The position numbers and the translations under genes are program-made. Of a DNA stretch of 42,908 nt, positions 4,585-41,767 are shown piece by piece (position 1 is the stretch's first letter; every line of letters starts with the position of its first letter). The DNA comes from Chromatiales bacterium (GTDB lineage Bacteria; Pseudomonadota; Gammaproteobacteria; RBG-16-57-12): assembly GCA_026989455.1 (NCBI GenBank), contig JALSJH010000081.1, positions 1 through 42,908 on the forward strand, read 5' to 3'. Below the pieces are notes generated by a model. That model made no database searches. It saw nothing but the letters and a program-made list of their open reading frames with translations, and was not told where the DNA came from.

Positions 4585-4742
4585 ACTTGAAGGATGTCAT
4601 GAATGTTTTATGCTGTCTGAAATCGTCCTCATTTATCCCGAAAATAACACCAATAGAACAACTATTACTGCGCATTTCGGAACAAATGAGAACAATTTCT
4701 TCTCAGCCTAAACTCATCCAGACTTAACCTAGAGCTTCTTAA
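4585..4742 (+). repeat. Foldback repeat family B, copy 1
   Basis: gtcatgaatgttttatgctgtctgaaatcg...cctcatttatcccg...caatagaac...ctattactgcgcatttcgg...tctcagcctaaactcatccagacttaacctagagcttctt; matches the other family B copies. Confidence 0.85.
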
Positions 4743-13056: not shown

Positions 13057-13219
13057 TAAGGAGTCTCTGATCAAATCATGAATATTTTACGCTGGCTGGA
13101 ATCGCCCTCATTTATCCCGAAAATTGCACCAATAGAGTGACTATTACTGCGCATTTCGAAACAAATGAGAACAATTCCCTCTCAGCCTAAATTCATCCAA
13201 ACTTAATCGGAGACTCCTC
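13057..13219 (+). repeat. Foldback repeat family B, copy 2
   Basis: aaggagtctctgatcaaatcatgaatattttacgctggctgg...ctcagcctaaattcatccaaacttaatcggagactcctca. Confidence 0.88.
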
Positions 13220-14040: not shown

Positions 14041-14784
14041 TTATTGCAACATCGATGTTTTAGCCAGAGGTGAAGCTAACTGCTGCTCTGCTCGCTGTGC
14101 CAGTGCATTAAGCTTCTCTACCGCCAGATAGCCCCGATGGGCATCGACAATGCCCTCCTGCTTCCAGTGCTGCAATTGCCGATTCACAACCACACGCACA
14201 CTGCCGATCATCTCGGCCAGCGACTCATTGGAGAGGTCGTTTATCAAGCGCGGCTCGGCATGCGCCGACTCGGCATCATCCATGTGACGCAATATCAACC
14301 GCGCCAGACGGGTCTCGGTATCGTGCAGCGCCAGATCCTCAGCCAGGTTTGCCAGCACGCACATCTGCTGTCCGATATAGGGCAACAGTGCGCGGTTAAA
14401 TGCGGGGTGGGCGGCGATCCACTCCCGGGTCTCCTCCATGGGTATACTCAACAGCGCAACATCATCTAAGGTTTCGAGCATCAAGTCATGGGGCTGGCCA
14501 TCCAACAAACTGAAAAGACAAAAGCCATCGCCGGGGCCGTGCAAAAAGAGGGTGATCATACGACCGCTGTGGGGGTTACTGCGGCTGAGCCTCACCCGGC
14601 CCGAGAGCAGTATGTGAAAACGCTGCCACGTCTCCTCCAGCGGCAGTAAGCGCCGCTGCTTCCAAGTCTCACGACGACAACGACTCAGGATATCCACCAG
14701 CGTCTCCCGGTCAAGCTCACCAAACAGTGTTGATTCCTGAAGGCACTTCAGGCTATCGGCGTAAAAAGGGGATTCAGGTGTCAT
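14041..14784 (-). CDS. Crp/Fnr family transcriptional regulator
   Basis: cNMP-binding-like N-terminus plus HTH 'LINDLSNESLAEMIGSVRVVVNRQLQHWKQEGIVDAHRGYLAV'. Confidence 0.85.
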   Translation of the reverse strand: MTPESPFYADSLKCLQESTLFGELDRETLVDILSRCRRETWKQRRLLPLEETWQRFHILLSGRVRLSRSNPHSGRMITLFLHGPGDGFCLFSLLDGQPHDLMLETLDDVALLSIPMEETREWIAAHPAFNRALLPYIGQQMCVLANLAEDLALHDTETRLARLILRHMDDAESAHAEPRLINDLSNESLAEMIGSVRVVVNRQLQHWKQEGIVDAHRGYLAVEKLNALAQRAEQQLASPLAKTSMLQ

Positions 14785-14913
14785 ATTATTTCCTCCAATG
14801 ACTCTTTTGAGTCAGACAGAAACAATAGTTCAAAAGAGGCCACAAATCGAGTGTTGGCGATATTATGCGAAATGGATGAAATATCCGGACTAACGATATA
14901 GACTACGGCGAAT

Positions 14914-15345
14914 ATGAACACTTTTCGTCAAACAGATAGATGGATATTGATCGCGTGGGCGCTGCTGCTCTCACTGGCACTGCTGTGCGTGCAGGGTAGT
15001 CAGCTTCATATTCACCATCTGGAACACGACCATGGCAGCCACCACAGCCACGCCATTGATGAGGTAGCCGATCACCTCCATTTGAGCAAAGCGCACCTTA
15101 TTCACGACACCTCCCACAACGACCATCATAATAGTCTCCTCTCCAACATTGAGATCAACCCTGATGAGTCGCTGAAAAAGACCCATCACACTACCCCGGC
15201 AATTGCCCTCTTTGTTCTCTTTTTCAGCTGGCTACTATTAGCCCCTTCGCAACGGCCCCTTCGACACCGCAACGAGATAAAGCGCGTCCTTTATAGCCGC
15301 TACACCCTCTCGCCGCCTTTGCGAGCACCTCCTCCAGTCTCCTAG
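14914..15345 (+). CDS. Small His-rich membrane-associated protein, putative metal binding
   Basis: N-terminal TM, then 'HIHHLEHDHGSHHSHAIDEVADHLHLSKAHLIHDTSHNDHHNS', second TM. Confidence 0.6.
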   Translation: MNTFRQTDRWILIAWALLLSLALLCVQGSQLHIHHLEHDHGSHHSHAIDEVADHLHLSKAHLIHDTSHNDHHNSLLSNIEINPDESLKKTHHTTPAIALFVLFFSWLLLAPSQRPLRHRNEIKRVLYSRYTLSPPLRAPPPVS

Positions 15346-15404
15346 CCCACAACCCTTTTTAAAAATTTACTGAAGCGTACCACGCCGATTTCATCTGCCA
15401 TCTC

Positions 15405-15569
15405 TTAGGGAATCTCAGATTAAGTCTGGATGAATTTAGGCTGAGAGGAAGTTGTTCTCATTTGTTCCGAAATGCGCAGTAATAGTCGCTCTATTGGTGC
15501 AATTTTCGGGATAAATGAGGGCGATTTCAGCCAGCATAAAACATTCATGACTTGATCAGAGCTTCCTTT
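15405..15569 (-). repeat. Foldback repeat family B, copy 3 (inverted)
   Basis: ttagggaatctcagattaagtctggatgaatttaggctgagagg...ccagcataaaacattcatgacttgatcagagcttcctt. Confidence 0.88.
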
Positions 15570-15625
15570 AGCTATGAAACTGCCCGGTTGAGTGCGCATT
15601 ACGTTGTGAAATCAGGAAACAGACC

Positions 15626-16747
15626 ATGTTATTAAAAGCAAAAATTACTTTTTTTCTAACCAGTATACTGGTGCTTATTCTCTTACCCCAGCTCGGCTAC
15701 AGCCACGGCATGTCAGATGCAGAAAAACAGCTCATCATCGACGGAGGCAACCTGCACTACATCTGGATAGGTGCCACCCACATGCTGTCAGGCTACGACC
15801 ATTTGCTGTTTGTTTTTGGTATTATCTTTTTTCTAACACGCTTCAAAGATATCGTTAAATACATCACTGCATTCACACTTGGCCACAGCGTCACACTGAT
15901 CTTTGCCACCTTTAACGCCATTCAGATCAACTACTTCTTGATTGATGCCATCATCGCCCTGAGCGTCTGTTACATCGCGTTTGTTAACTTGGGGGGATTC
16001 AAAAAACAGCTGAATATCAACCCGCCAAACATGTTGATGATGATCACCGGGTTTGGCCTGATTCATGGGCTAGGTTTATCGACACGACTACAACAGTTAC
16101 CACTGAGTGAAGATCACCTGTTAATGAACATCATCTCCTTCAACCTTGGCATCGAAATAGGACAAATTGCGGCACTGACAGTGATGTTAATCATTATTTC
16201 CGCCTTTCGTAAAAGTCACGCTTTTGTGACCTTTAGCCGCATAACCAATGTGTTTCTTATTTTGGCGGGAGGCTACCTGTTCCTGATGCAGATGCATGGC
16301 TATGCCCACACCAGCCACCCAGAGGAGTTCATGATCGAGCAGCCAACCCACAGCAGTGAAATTACTGACATAACAACCCAAACAGAGTGGAGAGACTCAA
16401 TCACTCTTACTCTTCCTGCCAGAGGCGACAAGGAGTACAAATTACAGCTGGAAAAGGGTGCAACACTTGAATACCGATGGGAAACCGATGGTGCGGCACT
16501 CTTTTTTGATTTTCACGGAGAGCCTGAAGATGATGACAGTGGTTTTTTCAAAAGCTATAAAAAGGGCACCGAAAGCCTATCCAGTAGCTCATTAACCACA
16601 CCGTTCACAGGCACACACGGCTGGTATTGGAAAAACAACACCCCATCCCCGGTCACCCTTACCCTAAAAACCAAGGGCGAATATCAACGCCTTGGTTTAG
16701 ATAGATCACTGGATCAATTTGAAGCGGAGATGGGTGATAATCTGTGA
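15626..16747 (+). CDS. HupE/UreJ-type membrane protein with additional C-terminal 'transmembrane anchor'-like domain
   Basis: 'HYIWIGATHMLSGYDHLLFVFGIIFFLTRFKDIVKYITAFTLGHSVTLI' HupE/UreJ core; C-terminal 'GATLEYRWETDGAALFFDFHGEPE...FTGTHGWYWKNNTPSPVTLTLKTKGEY'. Confidence 0.8.
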   Translation: MLLKAKITFFLTSILVLILLPQLGYSHGMSDAEKQLIIDGGNLHYIWIGATHMLSGYDHLLFVFGIIFFLTRFKDIVKYITAFTLGHSVTLIFATFNAIQINYFLIDAIIALSVCYIAFVNLGGFKKQLNINPPNMLMMITGFGLIHGLGLSTRLQQLPLSEDHLLMNIISFNLGIEIGQIAALTVMLIIISAFRKSHAFVTFSRITNVFLILAGGYLFLMQMHGYAHTSHPEEFMIEQPTHSSEITDITTQTEWRDSITLTLPARGDKEYKLQLEKGATLEYRWETDGAALFFDFHGEPEDDDSGFFKSYKKGTESLSSSSLTTPFTGTHGWYWKNNTPSPVTLTLKTKGEYQRLGLDRSLDQFEAEMGDNL

Positions 16748-41339: not shown

Positions 41340-41612
41340 CTACTCACTCTTCAGCTGATACTCCGCCCCACAATAAGGGCACTTACCCTGGCCATCTTTC
41401 ATTTTAATGTAGACCCGGGGGTGTGAGTTCCACAGGCTCATGCCATTCATTGGGCAGTGCAGTGGCAGTTCATCTTTACTCACCGTGTATTTGTTCTCTT
41501 TGTTTGGTAATACCTCACCCACTTCTGGGCCGGTTTGTGAAATGCCAGATGTCATGTCGCCTCCCGTTGTCTCTGTTTTTATCTGTTCTGAGCACCCCAT
41601 CACGGGGGCCAA
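41340..41612 (-). CDS. zf-CHCC domain small protein (start possibly 41555)
   Basis: 'LPLHCPMNGMSLWNSHPRVYIKMKDGQGKCPYCGAEYQL'. Confidence 0.85.
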   Translation of the reverse strand: MAPVMGCSEQIKTETTGGDMTSGISQTGPEVGEVLPNKENKYTVSKDELPLHCPMNGMSLWNSHPRVYIKMKDGQGKCPYCGAEYQLKSE

Positions 41613-41767
41613 GCCCTGATCAAGTCATGAATGTTTTTTGCTGGCTGAAATCGCCCTCATTCATCCTGAAAATTGCAGCAATAGAACAGCTATTACTACG
41701 CATTTCGGAACAAATGAGAACAATCTCCTCTCAGCCTAAACTCATCCAGCGTTAATCCGAGATTCCT
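41611..41767 (+). repeat. Foldback repeat family B, copy 4
   Basis: ccctgatcaagtcatgaatgttttttgctggctgaaatcgccctcattcatcc...ctcagcctaaactcatccagcgttaatccgagattccta; overlaps the ilvE stop codon. Confidence 0.88.

Follow-up and report, generated by a model that had tools for sequence, protein, structure and literature searches.

Locus organization and neighboring genes

The stretch of DNA analyzed here, termed the window, is 42,908 nt long and comes from a Chromatiales bacterium. Three open reading frames at 14041-16747 were studied. Their boundaries match exactly those given in an earlier sequence-only reading, which had proposed that the three genes form one metal-handling module.

14041-14784 (-): Crp/Fnr regulator, 247 aa, divergently oriented; a neighbor, judged not to be a member of the module
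14914-15345 (+): His-rich exported small protein, 143 aa, probable nascent-chain metal-sensor leader
15626-16747 (+): HupE_UreJ_2 permease with a C-terminal GOLD-like ('transmembrane anchor protein') domain in a single gene, 373 aa

The regulator shows Pfam matches to HTH_Crp_2 (E = 3e-12) and cNMP_binding (E = 2e-8). None of 80 related loci has a homolog at a distance of up to 8 kb, and linkage to the His-rich and fusion genes was seen only in the congener G002, in which the neighborhood is conserved. In a second congener, G001, the Crp ortholog (82% identity) adjoins a glycogen phosphorylase gene on a different contig from the His-rich, HupE and DUF6488 genes. Glycogen phosphorylase is also a near neighbor of the Crp gene in the window. 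Because the G001 ortholog stays with glycogen phosphorylase and away from the other genes, the regulator is assigned to the left-hand block. A perfect palindrome (TGACTC-TTTT-GAGTCA) is located at 14799-14814 between the Crp/Fnr and His-rich genes, and the G002 copy has one mismatch. The divergent layout and the near conservation of this palindrome would suit a single module of regulator, His-rich protein and fusion, but the linkage is confined to G002, broken in G001 and absent from all 80 other loci. The three-gene version is very improbable and largely refuted. The palindrome is possibly an autoregulatory site of the Crp/Fnr protein.

As noted in the sequence-only reading, no hydrogenase or urease genes were seen around the locus. 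A [NiFe]-hydrogenase cluster is located on a different contig of the same genome (L037:4400-14353, contig C17). It encodes maturation proteins, a rubredoxin-like ORF and a classical HupE (PF04955) of its own, and hydrogenase service was rejected as the role of the fused permease on that ground. No DUF6488 partner was found in the window's genome, and no Ni/Co or cobalamin riboswitch was detected in the window by Rfam search up to E = 0.5. Elsewhere in the window, the neighboring genes 86-754 and 891-1559 apparently arose by a recent duplication: their exported products closely resemble each other, and both contain WLADANYA.

The His-rich protein ends in a conserved RAPP motif

The features of the His-rich protein are as follows.

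15007-15141 (+): His/Asp tract (residues 32-76), presumed from sequence to be metal-binding and periplasm-facing
15193-15243 (+): second hydrophobic segment, ending 29 residues ahead of the first Pro of RAPP
15322-15333 (+): RAPP codons (Arg137-Ala-Pro-Pro140), candidate ribosome-arrest site, three residues before the stop

The protein had been described as a small two-transmembrane protein with a dense His/Asp tract. This description holds: 15 His fall within 43 residues, a density reached by none of 10,000 composition shuffles, and hydrophobic segments are present at residues ~10-26 and ~94-110. It has one Cys and no CxxC. Pfam gave no match for this protein, and membership of DUF2946 was rejected (no PF11162 match in any of 20 leaders). 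The G002 ortholog is 79% identical with conserved synteny. H32, H34 and H61 are nearly invariant across 20 relatives, and the two prolines of the tail are the sole invariant residues (mean column identity over the whole leader, 26%).

The last residues of the protein are LSPPLRAPPPVS. Among the 16 relatives nearest to the window, 15 have RAPP and one has RGPP, followed by one to three residues to the end. In the 80 related loci, 23 of 1638 ORFs of 70-190 aa carry R[AG]PP within 12 residues of the end. Twenty of these 23 are His-rich with an N-terminal hydrophobic segment and are located upstream on the same strand: 12 ahead of a fusion, four ahead of CzcC in a CzcCBA-HupE operon and four ahead of Bacteroidota anchor-CzcBA genes. 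The association between R[AG]PP and His-rich proteins has a Fisher p of 1e-30 uncorrected for relatedness. The pairing was then examined in genomes not used in forming the RAPP-leader idea, which supplied nine new, non-duplicate fused loci. A leader was found 107-567 nt upstream in 7/7 testable loci; in the remaining two the contig starts inside the operon, just before CzcA. None of the held-out split loci had a His-rich RAPP leader. The His-rich gene and the fused permease thus recur together in other genomes and in metal-resistance contexts, whereas Crp/Fnr does not accompany them.

The four Bacteroidota ORFs (L106:1161-1604, L113:5109-5558, L114:6086-6565 and L115:6072-6518) are His-rich and exported, always have RGPP, and lie upstream of anchor-CzcB-CzcA in loci with no HupE. 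They suggest that the same leader logic may serve efflux operons in another phylum.

RAPP and RGPP are known to stall ribosomes and are avoided or rare in proteomes; they are concentrated at the C-terminal ends of small exported proteins, of which some precede metal genes (PMC12992588, PMC10951233). Copper is sensed by CruR via RAPP and by CutF via a proline-rich tail (PMC9426467, PMC9973294). By itself, the proline motif of CutF failed to arrest a SecM-type reporter (PMC9973294). Since the His-rich protein has a conserved tail that matches a known ribosome-stalling motif, the gene probably encodes a metal-sensing switch and not a simple buffer. The earlier idea of a trafficking protein is accordingly revised: trafficking alone is improbable, and the likely role is that of a regulatory leader bearing RAPP as an arrest motif at its C-terminus. 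An alternative is that it acts in trans with the permease as a structural periplasmic metal buffer or metallochaperone, RAPP being incidental. The dense His tract is consistent with such a role, as are the conservation of a full-length protein with an N-terminal export signal and the presence of other small periplasmic proteins with His clusters, e.g., DUF6488, in these operons. The tail, however, is the best conserved part of the leader as judged from the alignment, the His-rich gene heads the operon, and RAPP/RGPP, although avoided in proteomes, recurs in the leaders, including every testable held-out one. CutF, moreover, is degraded rapidly after export (PMC9973294). The buffer explanation is considered unlikely.

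The probable regulatory leader is further characterized by the position of its second hydrophobic segment. Of the 17 relatives in which this segment can be recognized, 16 have 23-34 residues (median about 29) between its end and the first Pro; L056 is the outlier with 15 residues. About 29 residues is close to the length of the ribosomal tunnel, and membrane insertion of the segment could therefore coincide with the stall.

Leader-permease interval

In the window the leader and permease genes are 280 nt apart. The gap is widened by a repeat.

15409-15567 (+): palindromic repeat copy between leader and permease, outside the conserved module and absent at the same site in G002

The repeat is ~160 bp long with a predicted hairpin of -80.9 kcal/mol, and about 40 copies with at least 91% identity are present in the genome. 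Further copies in the window are at 13058-13217 (-), 41611-41766 (-) and 4596-4738 (-). A search between the leader and permease genes revealed neither a terminator-like nor a promoter-like site, which makes their co-transcription plausible. In several short-gap relatives, the 3' end of the leader gene is complementary to the downstream Shine-Dalgarno sequence (combined p = 8e-4 against synonymous recoding). Such pairing is suggestive of, and would suit, a SecM-like switch in those relatives. Shine-Dalgarno occlusion by the leader 3' end is unsupported in the window itself (p = 0.83). By analogy with CruR, an alternative route of control could be Rho-dependent.

The permease is fused to a GOLD-like domain

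The features of the fusion protein are listed below.

15626-15703 (+): signal-peptide-like segment (residues 1-26), with His27 directly after it
15758-16216 (+): HupE_UreJ_2 core (residues 45-197), with invariant His52, Asp58, His59, His87 and His147
16388-16696 (+): GOLD-like beta-sandwich (residues ~255-357), with invariant Glu270, Lys272, Asp295, His297, His331 and Trp333

The HupE/UreJ-type membrane core recognized in the sequence-only reading was borne out by a match to PF13795 (HupE_UreJ_2) at residues 45-197, with E = 5e-52 and 176 bits against a curated cut-off of 24.5. PF04955 was rejected as its family, being below cut-off where PF13795 fits. About six hydrophobic helices follow the signal-like segment. 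His27 is invariant in 24 fusions, and a predicted A-x-A-H-type cleavage context is found in all 23 related fusions. The first-helix signature HPxxGxDH (PMC7689651) reads HMLSGYDH in the window, so that HxxxGxDH is kept and the Pro is absent. The spacing of His52, His59 and His87 (7 and 28) equals that of the metal site modeled in an anglerase-HupE protein (His194, His201 and His229) (PMC12537917).

Pfam gave no match for the C-terminal domain, and sequence search found no significant relative of known structure. By tblastn against plasmids the domain matched 386 records, with 32-44% identity in most of the matches listed; the best match shows 44% identity (E = 2e-26). Several matches are annotated as 'transmembrane anchor protein', e.g., WP_193689177.1 (41% identity, E = 6e-16), and alignment with anchor-type relatives gave 11 invariant columns. 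The resemblance to stand-alone anchor proteins that the earlier reading had proposed is therefore a true homology to annotated members of the family. That reading had also proposed a structure prediction for the domain. AlphaFold2 with 57 relatives predicted, with high confidence, a GOLD-type sandwich of eight beta-strands (pLDDT 97-98 over most of the core). The leading PDB matches in Foldseek are GOLD domains of p24/TMED proteins, SEC14-like proteins and ACBD3; for the TMED1 GOLD domain the TM-score is 0.64 (query) or 0.78 (target) with an rmsd of 2.4. In the full-length model the permease part has a mean pLDDT of 67.9, and that model was used only for the C-terminal domain and a rough helix count.

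In addition to the six residues listed above, Trp285, Gly329, Gly332 and Asn337 are invariant in the domain. If the usual eight-strand order holds, Glu270, His331 and Asp295/His297 would lie on neighboring strands and form a plausible candidate metal site. A cleaved signal followed by six helices would place the C-terminal domain in the periplasm. Stand-alone anchors carry an N-terminal membrane segment, which suggests the same orientation.

Origin of the fusion and its gene company

The 80 related loci are the best named loci with the C-terminal domain, and the set is biased to close relatives of the window. In 23 of them the domain and the permease are fused in one gene, and in 51 the permease is encoded by the adjacent gene. 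In 276 evenly drawn genomes of the class the domain was found in 22; 13 of the 24 domain matches are in frames of fusion size (375-454 aa) and the others in frames of no more than 284 aa.

In a tree of the permease part all 26 fusions fall in one clade (100/100). This clade also includes two permeases without the domain, from G001 and G055 (100/99), a pattern that requires no more than a single fusion and a single subsequent loss. The fusion is thus, on the evidence of this tree, old and of single origin. The clade has records in Gammaproteobacteria, Alphaproteobacteria, Mariprofundaceae, Nitrospirota and Nitrospinota, many of them metagenome bins, and this wide span suggests transfer between phyla. 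The GOLD domain is dispensable, since G001 and G055 have lost it and retain both the leader and the permease. The GOLD-less permeases (L030:7570-8370 and L032:1358-2158) end in the His-rich tails HHESLD and HHDSID, which resemble the HD[ST]ID tail of many fusions and give the appearance of an internal excision of the domain.

DUF6488 adjoins 17 of the 23 fusions. In each of five plasmid regions that were read, the gene immediately after a HupE/UreJ-type gene is of anchor type, and four of the five have nearby Cus/Czc efflux genes, copC/copD/copper oxidase genes, a metal-sensing repressor, chromate genes or ncrABC. The earlier reading had placed the anchor family near heavy-metal efflux genes, and its unfused relatives do often lie beside CzcCBA, DUF6488 and metal-resistance genes of plasmids. 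This company gives good support to a metal-handling role.

Proposed function and direction of transport

We propose, with a probability of roughly 0.65, that the His-rich gene encodes a nascent-chain metal-sensor leader of the permease and that the two genes form a periplasm-facing module for transition-metal homeostasis. The small His-rich protein would be exported, and its main role would be that of a cis-acting leader. During export its His tract would sample periplasmic metal. Metal binding, or altered insertion of the second hydrophobic segment, would change the duration of the stall at RAPP, and the stall time would set expression of the downstream permease. The permease, a HupE_UreJ_2 protein predicted to reside in the inner membrane, probably has a mature N-terminal His, and its periplasmic GOLD-like domain may capture metal or present it to the permease. 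Points against this proposal are the failure of the CutF proline motif to arrest a reporter by itself, the unsupported Shine-Dalgarno pairing in the window, the loss of the GOLD domain in G001 and G055, and the lack of an RND gene in the window.

By analogy, the likeliest substrate is Ni or Co, with Cu or Zn possible. Ni/Co is favored by the HupE precedents, the His-only sensing, the ncr neighbors and a Ni-induced HupE/UreJ-like gene in Sphingobium ba1. That gene is the most Ni-induced in the strain and is clustered with RND and NreB genes (PMC5557971).

Of the metal acquisition or trafficking module in the sequence-only reading, metal handling is upheld by the company of CzcCBA, DUF6488, CopCD and ncrABC. 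Acquisition is not, since the contexts include both CzcCBA efflux and uptake through TonB receptors. In the case of uptake, the GOLD domain would fish periplasmic metal and feed it inward, in the manner proposed for anglerases. Characterized HupE proteins import Ni or Co, the anglerase-HupE model provides a precedent (PMC12537917), and TonB receptors are near some loci. Same-strand CzcA, however, is frequently linked (25 of 80 loci: 6/23 fusions and 19/57 other loci), and the Sphingobium gene is induced, not repressed, by Ni. Both observations fit simple uptake awkwardly, and we give inward transport an even chance. In the case of tolerance, the permease would export cytosolic metal, or the module would detain periplasmic metal for hand-over to CzcCBA. 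The CzcCBA linkage (with overlapping CzcA and HupE frames in some loci), the metal-resistance plasmid contexts and the Ni induction in Sphingobium are in its favor. On the other hand, no RND gene lies in the window (its genome has three Czc/Cus-like ones elsewhere), and we know of no HupE family member shown to export. Tolerance is a serious possibility, but we lean slightly against it.

A more specific form of the sensor-leader proposal can be offered tentatively, and we hold it to be rather doubtful as a whole. His-only two-transmembrane sensors would read periplasmic Ni/Co by insertion of the segment ~29 residues before RAPP, and would control a permease whose GOLD domain is an unrecognized bacterial metal-capture domain. 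Leaders of the same kind would stand at the head of CzcCBA operons of Gammaproteobacteria and, ending in RGPP, also of Bacteroidota.

To our knowledge, almost all described bacterial metal control works through transcription or riboswitches. Sensors that act as nascent exported chains are few; they include CutF and CruR, both of which respond to copper. If the proposal is correct, a His-only RAPP leader before a Ni/Co-type permease would extend nascent-chain metal sensing beyond copper. A GOLD-like fold is now predicted for the 'transmembrane anchor protein' family, which hundreds of plasmids carry, and the family is a natural fusion partner of HupE_UreJ_2. The conserved E270, D295, H297 and H331 are candidate metal-site residues.

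Comparison with known systems

In the literature searched, mainly outside subscription journals, we found neither a fusion of HupE_UreJ_2 with a C-terminal GOLD-like domain, nor a fold for the anchor family, nor a pairing of a RAPP leader with the fusion. The name 'transmembrane anchor protein' was not linked to HupE, efflux or plasmid metals in the literature searched. The fusion, the GOLD fold and the RAPP link appear to be new. The leader is another member of the CutF/CruR kind, and earlier work anticipated it: in the CutF study, His-only CutF-like proteins were observed beside HupE/UreJ genes, and Ni or Co was suggested (PMC9973294).

Like CutF of Rhodobacter capsulatus (PMC9973294), the window leader is shorter than 150 aa and has an export signal, a C-terminal PP and a same-strand metal gene within 1000 nt downstream. 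It passes all four CutF-like filters (<150 aa, PP within the 15 C-terminal residues, an N-terminal signal and a same-strand gene within 1000 nt), with 143 aa, RAPP at 137-140, a hydrophobic segment at 10-26 and a gap of 280 nt. Unlike CutF, it lacks CxxxC and has a RAPP tail, and the downstream gene encodes a GOLD-fused permease, not a multicopper oxidase; regulation is predicted here. CruR of Bordetella pertussis (PMC9426467) is a DUF2946 protein, whereas the window leader has neither DUF2946 nor CxxC, is His-rich, and has a second hydrophobic segment ~29 residues before RAPP. ApdA and ApdP (PMC10951233) share the same four-residue arrest core and are also encoded upstream of the presumed target; they precede SecDF genes, whereas the window leader has a His tract and precedes a metal permease.

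The fusion protein resembles the anglerases Ang-1/Ang-2-HupE/UreJ-2 (PMC12537917) in combining PF13795 with an extra extracytoplasmic beta-sandwich, and His27 may correspond to their His directly after the signal peptide. It differs in the extra domain, which has a C-terminal position, a GOLD-like fold and homology to anchor proteins. Only ~18 residues separate His27 from the PF13795 core, and there is no N-terminal Ang domain before the permease. The unfused plasmid cassettes of HupE/UreJ and 'transmembrane anchor protein' genes contain the same two families, with a His-rich small ORF upstream in 4/5 plasmid examples. In those cassettes, unlike at the window locus, the two families are encoded by separate genes, the HupE proteins belong to a distinct clade, and the small ORFs end in RPP/KPP variants and not in RAPP.
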